Origin: Owenia fusiformis | Taxonomy: Eukaryota > Annelida > Polychaeta > Sabellida > Oweniidae | Direction of reading: 5' to 3' | DNA length: 64,000 nucleotides | Assembly (NCBI GenBank): GCA_903813345.2 | Contig: CAIIXF020000011.1 | Location: 27,210,166-27,274,165, forward strand | Shown: piece after piece, positions 5,669 to 53,700 of the stretch | Layout of the letters: each line of letters opens with the position of its first letter | How positions within the stretch are numbered: the stretch's first letter is position 1 | Notes under the pieces: model-generated | Seen by the model: the letters and a program-made list of their open reading frames with translations, nothing else | Told to the model about the DNA's origin: nothing | Database searches by the model: none | Program-made: the position numbers and the translations under genes

Positions 5669-8600
5669 CTAAAACAGATCAATTACATTTATGAAAACAG
5701 ACAAACGTAAATCCAAACACACAATATACTGGATTTGTACTTGTAGGTCACTAAGTACAAAGCTTCCTAAATAGCTTATGAATGTCAGATGGCTCTGAAA
5801 TATTTCAGACACATACTTGAACTTTGTAAGACGAGGGAGTATCCCCAGAATTCAGAGATGAATATCCATGTAAAGTTGAACCTCTAAAAATTCATCTCTA
5901 CATGGCCATTAAATTCTGGAGTATTTCATCCACTTCGCCATGTATTTGAATGTCAACTCTGTAGGCATGCATAATATCATTCTACTTTGTATATGTGACA
6001 CGCTGGTTTCCCCAGCATTGAAGCAATCAGGGGATGCCCTCATTAATTTTGATATAATTATATCATAAATACATTTGAATTATGCACCACATTCATATCT
6101 GAAACCATGAATCAAAACCTTAATGAAACTCCTATTAAAATGACTTTTTGAAATTAAAAAAAAGTTTCACACATATTTTATTAACATTTGGAAAGACTAC
6201 AACATGTGTTTTAAACTTTTGCTGGGGCCTTTAACGTACCCTTTCTGCCTTGGCTTTATCTTGTGCCTTCCTGTAATCAGAGACCATCTTGGCAAATCTC
6301 TTCTCTCTACGTGCTTCGAGGATCAGGAGACCTTCTGCTATGAGGCTCTTTGCGACATCTTCCTGGGAGTCTGCATACTGCAGACTGACAGCATCAGGGG
6401 TGCCTCTGTACTCTATGTTCAGCTGGAGGGTCTTGTTCAGGATGTCATTATAGAGAGCATCTATGGCATCATTCTTAGCCTCACCCTGAATATGATTAAC
6501 ATTTGGCATATATATTGGCTATTTCTATTTAGATTTAATCTTTAATTCTAATGCAGTTCATTAATCCAGGTTTAATCTCTATAATATCTGTTTTTAAAAC
6601 CAATTTTATTGAAAACTAATATTTGATGTTTTGGGCATTCAGCATCTGAAGCCACGTGGAAATATGTAAAATTCAAATTTCATTGTTTCAGTTCCTACCA
6701 TGCGATTGGTCAAACATTGGCAATGTTATGTAAAATAGAAAAGTAAGAGATATAATTTGTCTGTCATGTACATCAAATGTATGCGCAATAATAACATCTA
6801 GGGATACATTTGAAATAAATGAGAAGAACAACAGCAATGTATCAGAAAACAATATAAGAACAGCATGAAACTCACATCTTCAGGAACAGAGACACAAGCC
6901 AAGGAATATTCTTGTGCTTGAGCAGGGAGGCTGTGGAAGGTAGGGGGCAGAACAGCCAAACTAGCAGATCCAGTAATCTCCCTCTGAAAGTGCATTTTTA
7001 TGTTTAAAATGTATTTCATTTAAAAGAATATAATAGCAACTAGAAAATGCTACAATTTAAAGAAATTGAAGAAAGAAGTATGTTCAATTTTTTATAAGAG
7101 AAAATCATGGAACTTGATGATAAAAAAGAGAAAGTGTACTTACATTACCAAAGTCAATGTACAAGACGTGAACTTTATTTTGGCCCTCAACTTTTGTAAC
7201 CTTAGCTCTGTACCATTCACCATCAGTGAACTTGGCGGCACAGAGGTCTCCCTTCTTTGGGATGTAAGAGCCAGGGAGTGGTGGATTGTCAGATAGCTCT
7301 TGACGGAGCTGCTCCATCATCTTCTCTACTTGTGGGCCTATAAAAGAAGAGACACATTTCGGGATATGGAATATTTCACTTGAATCATAACTATGTGGAT
7401 TTACTATTATATGGAACAGCACAATCTAATATTTTTCCCAGTTGGTTTAAAAAGCACTCTGAAAGACTGTATAAAATACATTGTTTGAGGAGCAAGGGCT
7501 GATCTACTAGTCATTTTAGTTCGAGATGAGCTGATGCTATCATTAGGTATTGGAAAATACCATTGCAACTGGTCAGTAATGACAAGATGGCCAGGTACGA
7601 TAATATAGATGTTGCCTTGTTGAGGAAAGAAGTAGGACTAAGCACTGGACTATGGATTCAAAATCAGGCCACTTAACCTCAGAAAGACAGTTCTAACATA
7701 GAAAACCCATAAGTCAATAAAAGAGTATACAAAGTCAATTGTGACGCACCATTGTCTACGCTCTGTGCGAAGAAATGCAAATCTTCAGTGACTTCAGTGA
7801 CAACAACATTCTGGTAGTTGACCTTTCTCTCTGTGGGTTCTTCCTTCACCTCAACCTCTACACTCTCCTTGAAATCCTTCCAGATCTGAAGGCAACAATT
7901 AGTATATACAAATTACAACCATGGCGCTTATCACAGTTTAATGGCTTAATCACCAAGTTGGTGTAAAACATGACTTAATTGTTTGATTCAGTATCGAATG
8001 GATTAGCAATTTGTTTATTTGTCAATGTTATAATGTCACAATATCAAGGTTTACATTATTTCTGGCATATTATAAACTAGAAATCGGCAGCTCCACAGAG
8101 TAGGAAATCCTAACGGAAAGTTTTCACTAATCTCTATATATGTCCATATGTTGTATTTACCATCTACTCTACCCATTGTTTACAGAGTATTTAAAAAACA
8201 GAAATCACACATTAGGTGGCCATTTTGAATTTCCTGAGGCACAAATTATAAAATAATTCTTCCTTGATATTAAAGAGAGAATCAGATCTAGCGAGTAGCC
8301 CAACAAAAAATTGTTTCAATTTTAGAATATTTCTGGCTCATGTCATTCCTTTTCATGTCTATTTTCTTAAAATTATCAAAGGACATACTTTATTTCAGGA
8401 AAACTAAAGATATTTACAATAACGTATTATTTTTCTATAAGTATGGTTATTCTTATTATTTGGGAGAATTTAAACATTTTTCACTCATTTTTGCACTTTG
8501 AATCCATTATAACTTCACCAATTTATAACATAGCGTGAATCTTTTGGGAGATATTGTATTTGAAATTGTAAGGAATAGAATGGTAGGTCAATTGTACACA

Positions 8601-11600
8601 TTGCTTGTAATTTTTTCACCCCCATAGATCTGATTCTGCCTTTAATGACACTTACATTTTTCTTCTTAGTCTTGGCTTGTTCCTCTGCCACTTGGAGTGC
8701 CCTGTAGTAGTTGGTTCTCTCTGCAGTGAAGTGCATCTTTGACAGTCCAGCCTCTACCAAAGCAACAGACATGTTGACGCCATCAACATAGCTGAAATAT
8801 GAATACAATTTTGAAAAACATTGGAAACTTGACATATTTCCAAATTATGTTATTTCAAAGTATGACACCATCATTGTCATGGCTACAATAGTGACTTCTA
8901 TAATCTCTTGGTTTAAAAACATCTCAAAAAGTCTCCCCATCTTCCTGCTCTATGACTAGCCACTAACAGCCATACATATTATCCCACCTTAATTCTAGTA
9001 AAGCTACTTTCAGCCATACATATTTTCCCACCTTAATTCTAGTACAGCTAAATACAGCCATCCAATCTTCCCACTTTAATTCTAGTAAAGCTACTTACAG
9101 CCATCCAATCTTCCCACCTTTATTCTAGTAAAGCTACTTACAGCCATCCAATCTTCCCTCCTTAATTCAAGTTAAGCTACTTACAGCCATCCAATCTTCC
9201 CTCCTTAATTCAAGTTAAGCTACTTACAGCCATCCAATCTTCCAACCTTAATTCTAGTTAAGCTACTTACAGCCATCCAATCTTCCCTCCTTAATTCAAG
9301 TTAAGCTACTTACAGCCATCCAATCTTCCAACCTTAATTCTAGTAAAGCTTCACTTACAACCACCCAATCTTCCCACCTTAATTCTAGTTAAGCTACTTA
9401 CAGCCATCCAATCTTCCCTCCTTAATTCAAGTTAAGCTACTTACAGCCATCCAATCTTCCCACCTTTATTCTAGTAAAGCTACTTACAGCCATCAAATAT
9501 TCCCACCTTAATTCTAGTAAAGCTACTTACAGCCATCCAATCTTCCCACCTTAATTCTAGTTAAGCTACTTACAGCCATCCTATCTTCCCACCTTAATTC
9601 TAGTAAAGCTACTCACAGCCATCCTATCTTCGCGCCTTAATTCTAGTAGAGCTACACTTACAGCCACCCAATCTTCCCATCTTAATTCTAGTAAAGCTAC
9701 TTACAGCCATCCAATCTTCCAACCTTAATTCTAGTAGAGCTTCACTTACAACCACCCAATCTTCCCACTTTAATTCTAGTTAAGCTACTTACAGCCATCC
9801 AATGTTTCCACCTTAATTCTAGTCAAGCTACTTACAGCCATCCAATGAAGTTGCCTCCTTTATCAGTGGCCTCCACCTCAACTTCTACTTCTCTTTGAAG
9901 ACACATCTCCTTGGTCAGCTGGAGGGCCTCCTCCCCATAGGCATCTCCTGGGATGATACCTCCCTGACCCCCAGGCACAGGACGGGGACCACGAGGACAT
10001 TCGATACCTGGAAAATACAGAAGAAATAAACTGTTAGAGACACCTTATTTTCTTTAAAATAAAAACAAGGAACATGACATAAACATAATCACATAACATC
10101 AAAATCACCAAACAATCACCCAAAAGTTATTAAACTATAGAACTTGATACTCTCGAGCATGTGTACCAAAATACAAAATAGTGAAAGCATATTAAAATGT
10201 CCATAAGTAAACTGAAATGAATAACACTAAAACTAAAAAATACCAACATTGCAAAGACCTTGTGCAATATTTCTTATCAAAACACTGCAATATTTATTGT
10301 ACTAGTTAACCTCAATGTCAAATATCTCTTACATTGCATTATCAGAGAGTATATGATGTTCTATGTCCAGTGTGCACTTAATAACCTTCAAATCATGATA
10401 ATGACCACTTTATCCATCATATTTAAAGTACATGTACTTTTCTACATCTTAAAACATTAATAATTTGTTCCATCGGGAACCCAAATTATTTTTTTTCAGA
10501 AAATAAAATCCAGATTATAAGGGCAACACTGACATGATTTTTGAAATGCTGTTCTTTTATACCCATTTGGCTCCACATTTCTCCCAAATATTCAAGATGA
10601 TTTTTATAAAATTTTACACTAGAAAAAAGTGATAAATAATTGTCTCCTGTCTACAAAAATCGCATTATCATTTGCCAAGACACCAACAAACTATTAATGC
10701 AAATTTATTTACGTTTTTTACTGTAACTTCAAAAAAGAAATTTTTGTACCAAAATTAAAGTATACGAATAGAAAAAACTTTATTCAAAATCACCTGATAG
10801 AGACCATGCAGGTGGGAATTTAAAGGATATGAACTTTAGATCCAAAGTCAATGACACTATGTTCAATATAAATATATCACACTGATAAAAAATTAATTTA
10901 CTCATTTATTAAGCTCAAGTACAACATAAGATAACACATTAACATTGCACCATACTGTACATATACAGCAAAATTTGAGCTAACATTTTTGGTGAATAAA
11001 AATTTCAATTGAGACGTTCAATCATGGGAGACAATAGAGAAGATCCAAAGACTTTAGAAAATGGTAATTTGGATATGAAAAATGTGAACGTAAAACTTGA
11101 TGACTTGAATGGTGAAATCCCAGTAAAACCTGGGCTCCCATCTGTAGATATTTCAACGATTGATCAACAGCTGAAAGATGATGTTAAAGACACTGAATCC
11201 AATCCTCCTGTTGATGAATCTGGTGCTGAGGAGAATCATTTCACAAAAGGCGCAATGTATTTAAACATGGCTATCCTATCGATAGGAATGATGTGTACCT
11301 TCATACCGTTCATGGCTCTCCAGAACCTCCAGAGCACATTGAATAGCCACCAGGGGGGAATAGGACGTGTCGTTCTGAGTGTTGGATATTTCTGTACAAT
11401 ATTTTCAACAGCCCTAGCACCATTACAGATTCGTATTTTGGGCAATAAAGGAGTACTAGTCGCCAGTGCATTTGGAACAATGTTATACACAGCATCCAAT
11501 TTCTTCCCATATTACTATGTTATGATCCCCGTCATACTGTTAACAGGCTTCCTGGGAGCTGGGGGCTTCCTAATCAAAGATATCTATGCAACTACATTTG

Positions 11601-14600
11601 CCACTAGACTGCAAAGGGACACTGGCAAAGAAAACGTTCATATGGCCTCAAGCTTTCAGTCAATCGTCTTCTTCTTCATCTCATCAGGAAAGATAATTGG
11701 GGATTTCATCTCATCAGGCGTTTTAGGCATACAGCCTGCTGACACAACGCTTAGGAACAGCACTATTGACAGAAAATGTGGCGCAAGATTTTGTCCTCTG
11801 GACCAGAATCTCACAAGTGATCCCCGGAATAGACCGCCATTAGAACGGGTAAGAAATAAGATAACTCTAAAGCTATCTCTGTTTTTTGTCTTTGATTATA
11901 TTAACAAGAAACTATATAGTAACTTGACTTAATCAAATATTGAGCTCAAATGACCATACTAAAAAATTCAACCGTTCAGAAAAACAAACCCAATCGTTGC
12001 TTTAGCTCAGTGACTTCTTATTTTCAGATCCACCTGTTGCTGATCATATTCTTATGTATCTCAGCAGTAGGCTGTATCTCTGTGTTCCTGTTCCTGAAAC
12101 CACTCTTCAAAAAACCACCCGAGCAAGATAATGTCACTTGTAAAGGTAGGCTTATCATGTTATATGCATATCTGCAGTACTAAAGCAATAGAGAAGTTTC
12201 TATATACTTAAAGTAGCTTTTAAAATCTTACTAGTTCTCTATTTTTGGGGGGGAATTTAGGAGATTTCTTTAATGACCTATGAGATTCAAAGTGTCAATT
12301 TGGTAGTAGCTGCCTCAAAGAAACAATTTCCTGTCTTATGTTTCAATATAGCCATAACCTAATCTCTGTACCATTATCATGTATGAATTAATCCCTAAAA
12401 ATAATTATATTGAGCAAAATAATATAAAAGTTGTTTTAACAATATATGTGAAAATCTAAAATGTTACAGTATTATCATTTTTCAGATGTTGTAATGAAAC
12501 TGACTTCTGTAATACGAATGCTTAAAGACTATAAGTATGTGATGTTCATGCCAATATTTCTCTTTTGGGGCTTCAAAAATGCTCTAATCTACGGCGATTT
12601 CACACAGGTACACTTTCTATTAGTCACATGGTGGGTAAAAATGGAATATTTCATTTTTCAGATGTTGTTTTGAAACTGACTTCTGTAATACGAATGCTTA
12701 AAGACTATAAATATGTGATGTTTATGCCAGTATTTATCTTTTGGGGCTTCAAGAGTGCTCTAATCTATGGAGATTTTACGCAGGTAAATCTTCCACCAGT
12801 CACATTTTTTGGACCCAGATTTTTATTTTGAACCATCATCATATGCCTTTGTAAGCATGAATATTTACGAGACTTGCTTGGGGTTTTCTGAAACCTGAGA
12901 TAATATTGCATCAAAATCTGAGAAAAGTACAAACAAACAAATTAACAATACAGGAAAAATTTCATAGCACAAACTTAGTTATTATTTTGTTATTTCAGTC
13001 TATCGTTAGCTGTGAGCTGGGTGTCGGATGGGTTGGCTATACTATGTTAACAGTGGGTGTCTCAAATTGTGTGTTAGTTTTACCAGTTGGCATTCTTGCC
13101 AAATATGTCCCAAGACCATTCCTAATGGGGATAGCATTTACAATCTATATGGCATGTTACTTGACCATGTTGCTATGGAAACCATCAGCCAATCAGCTTG
13201 CAGTATTCTTCATTATCCCATTTTCATGGGGCTGTGCAGATTCCATCATGCAGACTCAGCTAACACGTAAGTCAAGATGGGAAAAAATCATCAGTGAATG
13301 TTCTCGAGAAATTTCATTTTCATTTTTCATTCAAAAATACTGAAGGGAGTTCCCAAAGTTCATTACGACACAAAACTGGAGCATCAATGAGCTTGAAATG
13401 TTGACTATCATTGTAGCTTTAAAATTATGGGCTTGCAATCAAACTGTGACAACAATACGTCTGTACTAGCTTTAAACTCTGGCAGAACTAAATCCATTAT
13501 TATGCAGAGTACAAGCTGGTGGCTTGTAAAAAAATTCAAATTCAAATTCAACAATAAAGAAGTCTACTTTTATTGAAAATAACATGAAACTATAAATATT
13601 AACCCATTTACTTAGTATACTGTTTTGAGAGAGATAAGAATCAAACTTTAATGGAATGGTGATGGAATGGTTTGATTATTGAATGATGAAAAACTAGACA
13701 TTAATTGTTTTGTACTAGTATATTTTGTATCAAATTTCTTATTAGGGAGTCCAGAAGTTCCTAATGGTTTGGAAACTTAAATATTACATAATGTACAAAT
13801 TATGCATTGTGATTTTCAGCAATGGTGGGTCAGCTTTTCAACAATAATATGGCAGCATTTGCTGGCATCCCTTTGTTTTTGGGTATAGGAGGTGGAGTCT
13901 CCTTTGCCATAAGTGCAGCATTATGCATGGGGACAAAGGTAAGGATGTTCATGAATAGATTAGCACTGCAGCTATAGTTATATCATAGGTTAAGATAAAA
14001 TATATCCAGCTACATATCAGTGCCATACTGTTATCAAATAAAATCAAAATCATACTCCTTTTAAAATCACGTGCAAATCATATTCATCCCTGACAGTAAT
14101 CAAGGACTGAAAAAAAAGAACCCAGATTAGTTTAACTTTAATATTCCACTGTTTTTTCCAGGTGTACATCAATATAGGAGTGTTGATTTTGGCTATAGTG
14201 TGTTACTCATCTGCAGAGATACTGGCAACATGTGCATTCAGTCAGTCCGTCAACCTGGACCATAACACAGAATCTAATGACAAGGACCATAAAGGACTGC
14301 AGAGGAAGGAATCTTTCCAATATTTAAACTTGGCATACATTGACACCTAGACTTGGCAGACAATGAGAGCCACTTAAACCTGGCACATTCTCAAATACTT
14401 TAACTCAGTGGCATAAACTGAATTGTGACACTTGGTCTTGGCATATCATGCAACTGAAACATGGCATATCCTAACATATAAATTATAAAAAGAATTTAGT
14501 AATGAATGAATGAAAATAATAAAAATAAAAAAAATATATATAAAATTGACATCAAGACACATTTTGTACAATATATATCAACTGGTCGATGTGTGGTGTA

Positions 14601-47700: not shown

Positions 47701-50700
47701 TTCTTTTATTACCCATACATGTAGAATATCAACTGTAGGAGATGGGATGAGAATCCAGATTCCCTAATATGTAGATTTGATTAATAGATGTATGACACAT
47801 TCTGAAAACTACATCAATGTTAGTCGGTTACTTTAATAATAATACCAAAAATTATCTTACATTTTGACAACCCAAAGATCTGTTTCCTGTGAAGGACAAG
47901 CAGTTAAGTGTTCCCAGTACTGGCTTTAATTTAATCATTTTCTATAGTATGAAATTGAGTGTCTGGAAATGCATGTGTAATGTATTTTCAAGTAACCCTT
48001 TGAGGGTTCCAAATGAGAGGTGTCATCCCATGTTGAGTCTTAACATGTCATGTGATCTGTATGAACCAATTAGATGTTTTGTTTTGAGAATTGGGAGTCA
48101 ATTTTGATTGTATTGATGTGTCATCTCCTGGGATTAGAGGCGTTATTAGCATGACAATAGAATTTGAGATTTCTAGCATTCATTGATAGCTATTGATATT
48201 TATTGAGGCTGCATCTTTGCTAATTGTTTTGCCTAATGGTAACTTTCATTTAGTTTTCCTTTTAATGTTTCCTCATCTACTGAGCCTGTCTACTTATTAG
48301 GAGGCCCCATCGGGGGGCCTCCTATCAATTTTGTAGATATTATTCTTTATTATTATTAGGAGGCCCCATCGGGGGGCCTCCTATCAATTTTGTAGATATT
48401 ATTATTCTTTATTCTTTATTCTTTATTATTTATTCTTCCTCCCTCTTTTTCTCCTACTTCCAACTAACTTTTAACTAGCTACTACATAGTCCTACTAGGG
48501 ACCTGGGCTGAACTTGGCGGGAAAGGAATTTTTATCTAGGTCAAGGTCAAAGGTCAAAATCTAGGTCAAATCTAAGTTTTTTTCAAGTTTCTCAAATCCT
48601 GACACTACACTTCAATATTTTTGGCTGAATTTTTGCATACAGATAGATATTAGTATTCTTTTAGTCTTAGCCTTTTGCCGTCTAGAGAAATTTTGCCTAT
48701 ATTTTGAGATATTGAAGGTCAAAAAAAGGTCAAAAAAGGTCTTTTTTCAACTTGCTTCAAATTGACCAAATTTTTTTTTAAAACTCATCTACAAGTTCTC
48801 AGAATTCTAAATCTGACCTTACTTTTGACCTTTGACCTTTCGTTGACCTTCAGTGACCTCCGAAAGGTCAAAAAAGTTGATTTTTCAAATCGTTTTTCTG
48901 GATTCAAATTTAGGTATATTTATTCACAAAAGACCTTCTAAGGTGTAAAAAAGTAAAATTTGCAAGGTCAAAGGTCAAGGTCATCAAACGAAATCACAAA
49001 CTGTGTTTTCTAAGTTTCTCAAAATTGGAGACTACAAATCAATTTTTTTTACTGAAAGTCAGAATATATATTCCTCTAAAGGTTCTACACATATTAGCAA
49101 TTGACTATTCATTAAAATTTTGCTTCAGTTTTGAGATATTAGAACTCAAAAACAGAAAAAGGTCAAATTTCCAAATTTTTCAAGGTCAAATTTTAACTTG
49201 CTCTAAATTGACCAAACTTTTTTTTAAAAAGCATCTACAAGATCTCAGGAACTCAAATCTGACCTTAATTTTGACCTATGACCTTTAGTTGACCTTCAGT
49301 GACCTTCGAAAGGTCAAAAAAGTTGATTTTTCAAATTGATTTTCTGGATTCAAATCTAGATTTATTCAATCAGAAAAGATATACTGAGGTCTGAAAAAGT
49401 AAAATTTTCAAGGTCAAAGGTCAAGGTAATCAAACAAGATCACAAACTGTGTTTTCTAAGTTTCTCAAAGTTTGTGACTACAAATCAATATTTTTGAATT
49501 AAAGTCAGGATATATATTCCTCTAAAGGTTTTACACGTATTAACAATTGATTATCTATTAAAATTCTGCACCAGTTTTGAGATATTGGACCTCAAAAACT
49601 GAAAAAGGTCTAATGTTGAAATTTTTCAAGGTCAAATTTCACATTGCTTCAAATTGACCAAACTTTTTTTTAAAAATCATCTACAAGATGCCTGGAGTTC
49701 ATATATGTCCTTGTATTTAAGATTTGACCTTTGGCTGACCTTTAAATGTTCAAAAAAGCCTACGGGGCCTCCGTAAGATTGCTTGCAATCTTCTAGTTAT
49801 TATTCTTTATTATTATTTATTCTTCCTCCCTCTTTTTCTCCTACTTCCAACTACCTTTTAACTAGGTACTACATAGTCCTACTAGGGACCTGGGCTGAAC
49901 TTGGCAGGAAAGGAATTTTTATCTAGGTCAAGGTCAAAGGTCAAAATCTAGGTCAAATCTAAGTTTTTTTCAAGTTTCTCAAATCCTGACACTACACTTA
50001 AATATTTTTGGCTGAATTTTTGCACACAGATAGATATTAGTATTCTATTAGTCTTAGAATTTTGCCGTCTAGAGAAATTTTGCCTAGATTTTGAGATATT
50101 GAAGGTCAAAAAAAGGTCAAAAAAGGTCTTTTTTCAACTTGCTTCAAATTGACCAAATTTTTTTTTAAAACTCATCTACAAGTTCTCAAGATTCCAAATC
50201 TGACCTTACTTTTGACCTTTGACCTTTGGTTGACCTTCAGTGACCTCCGAAAGGTCAAAAAAGTTGATTTTTCAAATCGATTTTCTGGATTCAAATTTAG
50301 GTATATTTATTCACAAAAGATCTTCTGAGGTCTAAAAAAGTAAAATTTGCAAGGTCAAAGGTCAAGGTCATCAAACGAAATCACAAACTGTGTTTTCTAA
50401 GTTTCTCAAAATTGGAGACTACAAATCAATTTTTTTTACTGAAAGTCAGAATATATATTCCTCTAAAGGTTCTACACATATTAGCAATTGACTATTTATT
50501 AAAATTTTGCTCCAGTTTTGAGATATTAGAACTCAAAAACTGAAAAAAGGTCAAATTTCAAAATTTTCAAGGTCAAATTTCAACTTGCTCTAAATTGACC
50601 AAACTTTTTTTTAAAAAGCATCTACAAGATCTCAGGAACTCAAATCTGACCTTAGTTTTGAATTATGACCTTTAGTTGACCTTCATTGACCTTCAAAAGG

Positions 50701-53700
50701 TCAAAAAAGTTGATTTTTCAGATTGATTTTCTGGATTCAAATTTAGGTTTCTTCAATCAGAAAAGATATACTGAGGTCTAAAAAAGTAAAACCTGTAAGG
50801 TCAAAGGTCAAGGTCATCAAACAAGATCACAAACTGTTTTTTCTAAGTTTCTCAAAGTTTGTGACTACAAATCAATATTTTTGAATTAAAGTCAGGATAT
50901 ATATTCCTCTAAAGGTTTAACACATAATAACAATTGATTATCTATTAAAATTCTGCACCAGTTTTGAGATATTGGACCTCAAAAACTGAAAAAGGTCTAA
51001 TGTTGAAATTTTTCAAGGTCAAATTTCACATTGCTTCAAATTGACCAAACTTTTTTTTAAAAATCATCTACAAGATGCCTGGAGTTCATATATGTCCTTG
51101 TATTTAAGATTTGACCTTTGGCTGACCTTTAAATGTTCAAAAAAGCCTACGGGGCCTCCGTAAGATTGCTTGCAATCTTCTAGTTTTGATAAAATATTTA
51201 ATGCTTGTATCAATTTTGAAAAAAAGATGTCCCTCATTGAGTGCATTTGGAGTGAAACCTCTTCAAGTATACATGTATTTCGAAAAAATTTCAGTCTATC
51301 ACATAAATTGATTATTTGGGATATCTCAAAAAGCTCATATTACATCAAAAAGTATCTCATGTTTCTAACGTATTCAAAAATTTACCTACTTCCTGGCATT
51401 ACCAAAAAAGAAATGACAGGTTTACTAGCTTAGAAAAACTTAAGTAATTAAACATTTTTTTAATCATAGCCCTGAGCTCATAGTTCGAGTACAACTTTAA
51501 TTAAATCAGTTCAGTTATTTCATTGTGATATGATTGATTGCTCATTTGCTAAAGATTAAAACTGTATCATAAAAGTCATAATATAGAATAATTCATCTTT
51601 AACACCTCTTAATCCTTCCTAGCTTTGATTTATCAGGTTTTATTCATGAACTGAATAGGATTGTAATATACTGCATATATCCCGCATTGTGGATTTCGCT
51701 CATTTGTTTGTTGATGAAGTATTAGCTCTTTTATGGAGATCGTTTGTCATAACAAATATTTTATTTCTGAGTAATGAAGAGATAATGTCTCTAGTAACCT
51801 TTTAATGTGTCTTCCTCTCTTTTTGTGAATTATTTTATGAGGTAGTAAATTTGGCTTGTATGACTCTTACCTTATTGTGATGTGCAAAGTCTTAAATGCC
51901 TCTTGAAGAAAGCAGCATTGTGAAAAACAGAGATGTGATGAGTATCAGAATCTAAAGAGACTAGCTTTAGCAAGAGTTAGATAAAGAGGGACATTTCTGG
52001 GATATAATGTCCTTGTAGTTCTTTATGTCACTTTCACAAGTGTGGCATATTGTTATAATGTCGAACCTTTTCATTGATTGTGTTCGGCAGTTGGTTGGTG
52101 GTACACACTGAAAATAATGCCATCTATACACATTGGACAAAACATCATCTACATGTATATACATTGTACATGTACTTTCAGGATGGCAGCAGAGGTTCAG
52201 GTATTGACCAATTAGCAGTGAAATATTCCCGAGATCTCAACACACATTTCCAACACGTCTCCCTACAGTTAGAACAATTGCGTCAGCTGGAAGTCAACCC
52301 AAGTGAAACCTTAAAGGTAAAATTCCTCATAAGTAATACATGATACTGTTGCATTGTTGTATTTTAAAGTGAATACAGGCTATATCACTTTTTAGTATCA
52401 TTGAATATTTATGAGCATGAATTGTTTTTATGTCACCACCAGAAGGGGTGACGCATTGTTAATAGTCTCTACATTTTTTATTGATGTTGTTTGTTGGTTC
52501 GTGTTTGGCAGTCAGCGGTTGGTGTTCTACATTTGGCATCTGTAACAAATGGCAGGTGGTGACATTTTGCATGTTAATGCCTTGTTTTACTGGGAAAAGA
52601 CATTATTTAATTTTGATATTTACCAGGGAAATGGCAATTTTACAGTATATTATGTTGCTATATTTTTTTGAATATTTGCTTTATTGTTTGATTATAATGT
52701 ATCTAAGACTAAGACAAAATATCGACTTGTCTCATATACTAACACGAAGAGGACAAACATTGTCCTTTTTTCTGTTACCACAACAGAAATTTTGTATCTA
52801 AAATTTTGTCACCACAATGTTAATTGGTGACATATTATAATAACTAACATTTTTCTGTAAGTTCAGCATCCAGCATCTGAAATTGGCATCTGTAACACCT
52901 TGATACGCTTATGGCCTAGTCACATAGCCCGGCCGATGAGGTTACGATGAGCCAGCGATGCAATTTTCACCGAATTTGGCCGGACACCGGCCGGACATCC
53001 GTGGCGTTTGTTGCTTAAAACCGCATCGGTGGTAGCTCTGTGAAATTTTAACTTCGGAGTTAAATTTCACCGGGCTCTCACCGAGCTCCCTCATCATGTC
53101 ATCGCAGCCCCATCGTAACCACATCGGAAAACACGTCGGCCGGAGTATCGGCCGGTGTCCCGTGCATCTGAGACAACCAGAGGACGAGGTTTTTTAACGG
53201 ACAGCGGCCGAGCTCCGACCGAGCTCCGGCCGATGTGGGACAGAGCATCGGCCGGTCACTGTTCAAAGCCTGTTAACAACCCGGCCGGCGATCGCACGGT
53301 GTCCTGTTACCTGCTCGGGTACTGGCCGTATTCCTTCCGATGTCCGGCCGACCTCCGGCCGGTAGTTGCTGCCACATCGGCAGAAAAAAACTACCATTTT
53401 GAGACAGACTCCATACGGTCACCGGCCGGTGTTCGGTCGGTCGCCTGAAGATGTTCGGACGGAGTCCGTTCACGTCACCGAGCTCTGCTTCCGATGAGGA
53501 GAGCTCGGTGGCACCAAAAAAATCCACCGAGCTCTACCGATGCCAGACATCGGCCGGGCTATGTGACTAGGCCATTATACACCATTTGTAGGTTGTGCAC
53601 ATATGTGACATTTTGTTCAGTTAAATGCTTTGTTTTATATTTATTTAAACTGCTTACATGTTTTAATTTGCTTCATTACTTTTTAGTCTCCTGCATTATG

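Follow-up and report, generated by a model that had tools for sequence, protein, structure and literature searches.

The gene for SND1 (Tudor-SN) is present on the minus strand of the window, the 64,000-nucleotide stretch of contig CAIIXF020000011.1 analyzed here (positions 27,210,166 to 27,274,165), and one of its introns carries a tandem array of 5' splice sites. The exon upstream of this intron (9836..10007, 172 nt, minus strand) ends in the letters ...GGCAACTTCATTGGATGGCT, followed directly by GTAAGT (9830..9835), and it is the 3' end of this exon that seeds the array. The array itself (8958..9846, minus strand) is followed in the direction of transcription by the unrepeated rest of the intron, 166 nt read from the sequence (8792..8957, minus strand), which leads to the acceptor CAG. 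The next SND1 exon starts at 8791, where a C completes the codon CTC ahead of TAT GTT GAT GGC; we place it at 8515..8791 (minus strand), the lower limit being the end of the open frame and no mapped exon end. The peptide obtained by joining the exon end at 9836 to the exon start at 8791 matches human SND1 (PDB 3bdl, E=4.4e-33), and the alignment runs without a gap across the junction. Because coding continuity with the human protein is preserved, the exon-adjacent GTAAGT, a phase 2 site, is the real donor, in agreement with the initial annotation. The frame past this junction reads TGG CTG TAA, so that the in-frame stop reported straight after the true site is indeed there, and any later donor adds CTG TAA immediately. 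Whole-genome searches with the array and with a 97-aa stretch of SND1 matched the window's own copy alone, though a missed match in such searches is not absence; a retrocopy of the SND1 stretch, as a fossil complementary DNA, was considered and set aside, none having been found in the genome search.

Tandem Repeats Finder (TRF) assigned a period of 43 bp to 8958-9846, with 20.5 copies, 89% matches and a score of 1342, and a listing of the units gave about 21 copies of 43-45 bp. The donor has therefore really been copied some 20 times into the SND1 intron, as first proposed. A 303-bp period of seven units scored slightly more over the same span (1385), and identity between copies was not higher at the seven-unit distance. 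Each 43-bp unit is made of 11 exonic nt, GTAAGT and 26 intronic nt, and thus spans the exon-intron boundary; the exonic part, ATTGGATGGCT, is common to the exon end and the unit, as had been claimed. In transcript order, the true donor at 9835 is followed by 17 intact decoys down to 9098 (9093..9792, minus strand), whose composition of 16 GTAAGT and one GTGAGT (9616) was counted correctly in the initial annotation, and then by three distal copies of lower identity (8958..9055, minus strand) with the broken donors GTATTT, GAAAGT and GTTAGT. GTRAGT is kept in this way in 17 of the 20 intronic copies. The distance between donors is 43 bp, as annotated, in all but three intervals, which measure 45. 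Copies 10, 13, 15 and 16 are identical, and the last two of the 20 units compared have a mean identity of 0.71 vs 0.82-0.91 for the rest, a drop that arises partly from unit 20 being cut one base off register. The exon-side edge is not degenerate (identity 0.86), and concerted evolution with exclusion of the edges is thus seen at the far edge only. A boundary-spanning unit, copies that carry splice signals and a homogenized interior are features of a described class, the mirage minisatellites of lancelets, as presented in PMC3087553 and PMC3902484; the opinion that no standard class exists for this arrangement was mistaken.

Neither U1 pairing nor local structure separates the true donor from its copies. 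The U1 gene of this genome begins with ATACTTACCTG, the usual 5' end (one of 42 matches was read), and 14 of the 18 intact SND1 donors, including the true one, are the same 11-mer with a U1 pairing energy of -7.0 kcal/mol; the remaining four range from -6.2 to -7.3 kcal/mol. U1 strength is rejected as the selector on these grounds. Structure fares no better, the true donor being no more accessible in local folding (0.005) than the decoys (mean of 0.009). Since pairing with the small nuclear ribonucleoprotein (snRNP) and accessibility do not distinguish the copies, the choice of donor must come from context. The U1 genes of this genome also form a tandem array of their own (G000 C9:23745153-23771556, spacing mostly about 750 bp), which holds 34 of the 42 U1 matches.

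Similar arrays recur in other genes. They were sought in the 498 Mb of the genome as runs of three AGGTAAGT spaced as in an array. Within the first 100 places of each listing, the loci distinct from one another make up a set of 28 arrays, which is no random sample; two further loci with the unit of L016 were left out. Nine of these 28 arrays start at an exon end where significant protein homology reaches to the donor or to within a few residues of it: NCS1 (L008), an I-set Ig protein (L009), Rab27A (L010), UGDH (L013), a kringle protein (L015), BLOC1S5/Muted (L024), an NLI-interacting phosphatase (L026), an HSP110-type chaperone (L030) and a Cys-loop receptor (L032). When exons are joined over the array, homology spans the junction in NCS1 (E=7.9e-30) and, without a gap, in Rab27A (E=2.8e-53); in L015, sequence beyond the array makes the kringle domain complete (E=6e-19). 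Seven more loci (L011, L012, L014, L018, L029, L033 and L034) have an exon-like score without a homology match. L012 is presumably a DIP2-like gene, a name to which Pfam and PDB searches, both without a match, lent no support. L023 also scores as an exon and resembles a tetraspanin (E=0.058), and L016 scores as an exon only with a variant donor. The codon score falls below zero at L017, L020, L025, L031 and L035, and at L019, L021, L022, L027 and L028 the sequence ahead of the first AGGTAAGT yielded no exon. At L015 and L016, both on G000 C6, a pyrimidine-rich AG closes the unit immediately ahead of GTAAGT, and each unit boundary could in principle act as acceptor and donor.

We then considered whether the decoys are under selection, scoring mismatches to the array consensus in 13 arrays; 12 of these had been found by the donor motif, which therefore gives a slight bias towards intact donors, and SND1 had not. 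The donor hexamer mismatched at 86 of 1783 positions (4.8%; 22/596 for GT alone), compared with 289/8037 (3.6%) for exon-derived columns and 210/3493 (6.0%) for other columns. For the SND1 array alone, the exon-derived figure was 10/220. The donor window held a mean rank of 0.51 among all windows of the unit, and selective constraint was not detected for the set. The rate of change at the donor hexamer is about that of the remaining unit, so that the decoys as a set are neither kept nor purged. Use of a decoy would lead to a stop or a frameshift in 11 of the 13 arrays, and frequent use should therefore have led to purging in such genes. The frame stays open in the other two, for 510 nt past the true donor in L018 (G000 C6:7468000-7472000, minus strand, 42-bp unit) and for 996 nt in L023 (G000 C1:442200-444200, 54-bp unit); decoy use there would add repeats of 14 or 18 aa, respectively, without a stop.

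Acceptors have been multiplied as well. In the UGDH gene (G000 C2:33702000-33706200), an acceptor together with the exon start is present in at least seven copies, about 130 bp apart, the last of which has the full exon; about 12 donor copies of 45 bp form an array 3' of this exon, and at least four acceptor copies of 91 bp precede the next exon, up to the end of the piece examined. The DIP2-like and tetraspanin-like genes each have two acceptor copies beside their donor arrays. In SND1, NCS1, Rab27A, the kringle gene and UGDH, the coding donor is the copy that is transcribed first. Among acceptors, the coding copy is the last in UGDH (at least seven copies) and in the DIP2-like gene (two copies), the two genes judged. 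The suggestion that the first site wins thus fits the donors but not the acceptors. With the coding copy first at donors and last at acceptors, what the two sides share is closeness to the exon body, and the statement should read that the site adjoining the exon body wins, as expected under exon definition.

Taken together, we consider it very probable that the SND1 array is a neutral minisatellite of the mirage type, with decoys that are ignored and a donor adjoining the exon body that wins by exon definition. A short tandem duplication across the exon-intron junction would have come first, followed by expansion, probably through unequal exchange, and expansion of the array would have brought the intron from a length of about 200 nt to its present 1,044 nt. 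All 17 intact copies are donors that match U1. The copy at the exon body would most likely be the one used, favored by exon enhancers, by pairing with the upstream acceptor and by giving the shortest exon, and the other copies would stay silent and evolve neutrally. Several points weigh against this interpretation. The donor columns of the SND1 array are slightly better kept than its intronic columns (5/126 vs 37/524 mismatches; window rank 0.29), figures that are compatible with weak maintenance, and exchange between copies can hide selection in either direction. Moreover, the classical rule holds that the intron-proximal donor wins when both sites are occupied by U1, which predicts use of a distal copy. 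As for the choice of site, it is also conceivable, albeit doubtful in our estimation, that a kinetic rule operates in place of exon definition, the first transcribed donor being committed before any decoy appears. The order of donors in the five genes listed above fits such a rule, but the coding acceptor is the last transcribed in UGDH and the DIP2-like gene, and first-come choice alone is insufficient.

The initial annotation had offered three functional readings, a U1 sink, a regulated poison exon extension and neutrality; the last is now the best supported, and the other two found no positive support. As a poison extension, the array would allow some transcripts to use a decoy, meet the TAA and be destroyed, thereby tuning the level of SND1. 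The 17 decoys are intact, strong donors with an immediate stop, and the prevalence of stops and frameshifts across the arrays examined is in keeping with this idea. Nevertheless, the SND1 stop sits in GTAA itself, so that any unit of this sort in this phase brings it along, and the donor columns of the 13 arrays show no extra conservation, which leaves a regulatory role improbable. Still less likely is a U1 platform, in which the ladder would gather U1 snRNP and so strengthen the exon, slow the polymerase or act in telescripting (less premature polyadenylation in the intron). The U1 pairing energies of all 17 decoys, -6.2 to -7.3 kcal/mol, resemble that of the true site, but the donor hexamer is neutral within arrays and GTAAGT ladders are barely commoner in the genome than ladders of the reversed word (3544+3360 = 6904 vs 3301+3223 = 6524 places), a comparison by which the GTAAGT ladder is also rejected as a special motif. 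With at least 42 U1 matches in the genome, 34 of which sit in a single array, titration of U1 seems unlikely. Finally, an assembly artifact in which a short repeat was falsely expanded or collapsed is scarcely credible: copy number is known from a single assembly, but many copies have variants of their own, unrepeated sequence flanks the array on the same contig, and several genes unrelated to one another have arrays of this kind.

Splice junctions might be preferred seeds of the arrays in this genome. Ladders of AGGTAAGT with a period of 20-50 differed little from those of the reversed word (238/19109 vs 352/33902 occurrences), whereas an excess was seen at periods of 51-81 (670/19109 vs 370/33902), where places overlap and are not independent. 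We also compared the 28 arrays with isolated AGGTAAGT sites, using a codon score trained without the scored donor-array exons. The controls were 40 sites over C1-C9 (the first 41 of 66 places, minus one near-duplicate), enlarged to 69 by another 29 such sites taken at the beginning of C1. The score was above zero in 17/28 arrays vs 11/40 (p=0.012) or 17/69 (p=0.0011) isolated sites; above the 99% null in 13/28 vs 11/40 (p=0.13) or 15/69 (p=0.025); and above 5 in 8/28 vs 8/40 (p=0.56) or 10/69 (p=0.15). Pfam matches at E<=1e-3 were obtained for 8/28 arrays vs 3/40 (p=0.041) or 4/69 (p=0.0043) isolated sites, where peptides were sent for 17/28 arrays and 15/69 isolated sites with the remainder counted as misses, and where some array peptides were longer than those scored, which favors the arrays. 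These results are suggestive only; arrays at exon ends are not depleted, and perhaps are enriched, relative to isolated AGGTAAGT. We therefore put forward only tentatively, and with less than even confidence, that splice junctions are preferred array seeds here and that many conserved genes carry ladders of intact decoy splice sites, flanking an exon on one side or on both, which are ignored under a simple rule that favors the site in contact with the exon body.

Two other repeats were noticed in the window. A 446-bp tandem repeat with 5.2 copies and internal GACCTT repeats occupies 48745-51129. Closer to SND1, two tandem exon-like blocks of 122 nt (12486-12607 and 12662-12783, plus strand) are identical at 110/122 nt and lie 54 nt apart, each with an acceptor and a donor. 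Their host is the neighboring multi-span membrane gene, which resembles UNC93 by eye, and a Pfam search with two neighboring reading frames gave no match. The blocks are candidate mutually exclusive exons because including both shifts the frame.

How the splicing machinery chooses among identical donors is an old question that has been studied with artificial duplications. Here, evolution has made rows of up to dozens of near-identical donors, and also of acceptors, in conserved genes, a set in which exon definition and order of transcription can be tested directly against each other. The finding also has a bearing on how common such a route to intron growth, and possibly to intron gain, is. 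Should arrays prove to be seeded at junctions, the genome would amount to a natural library for the problem of splice-site choice. The SND1 array itself is real, of ordinary origin and most likely neutral, and the genome has several to many of its kind; the genome-wide set is the part worth following, as a natural test of that choice.

Tandem duplication of AG/GT sites reportedly gives rise to introns (the Rogers model, with Zhuo et al. 2007 and Hellsten et al.). The arrays described here resemble this process in placing tandem copies of splice sites inside a gene, but the SND1 repeats lengthen an intron at a junction verified by coding. Human variable internal tandem repeats (De Grassi and Ciccarelli 2009) likewise involve minisatellite expansion at an exon-intron boundary. 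PMC2812944 assigns them to recent paralogues of segmental duplications and states that half of them or more modify the coding sequence.

The closest counterparts of the SND1 array are the mirages of lancelets. The genome examined here is not that of a lancelet, because it carries a Hox signature of Lox5 type: nine of ten Hox-like loci examined gave a readable homeodomain, L108 and L109 gave Ubd-A-like peptides, and the homeodomain of L106 is followed by KLTGP, as in Lox5. Moreover, 12 large contigs account for at least 464 of the 498 Mb, whereas lancelets have 19 or more chromosome pairs. A literature search, which did not reach the original Adh3 paper, found no report of mirages outside lancelets. 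As described in PMC3087553 and PMC3902484, lancelet mirages are minisatellite-like repeats across exon-intron boundaries of Adh3 (units of 10-72 bp), the globins BflGb6 and BflGb9 (about 150-160 bp), TnC and PGBD5; both 5' and 3' boundaries are affected, and normal messenger RNA is reportedly undisturbed. PMC3087553 adds that middle copies are homogenized and cluster edges are not. Like these, the SND1 array spans a boundary, leaves the coding exon intact and has a uniform middle and a degenerate outer edge. In contrast to the lancelet cases, mirage splicing in which was read by reverse transcription PCR, the SND1 array is known from sequence. It also has about 21 copies, compared with the 6 and 3 units of two BflGb6 haplotypes (PMC3087553 and PMC3902484), and it belongs to a non-lancelet genome in which several genes are involved. 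The recurring arrays of mirage type found here extend mirages beyond lancelets.
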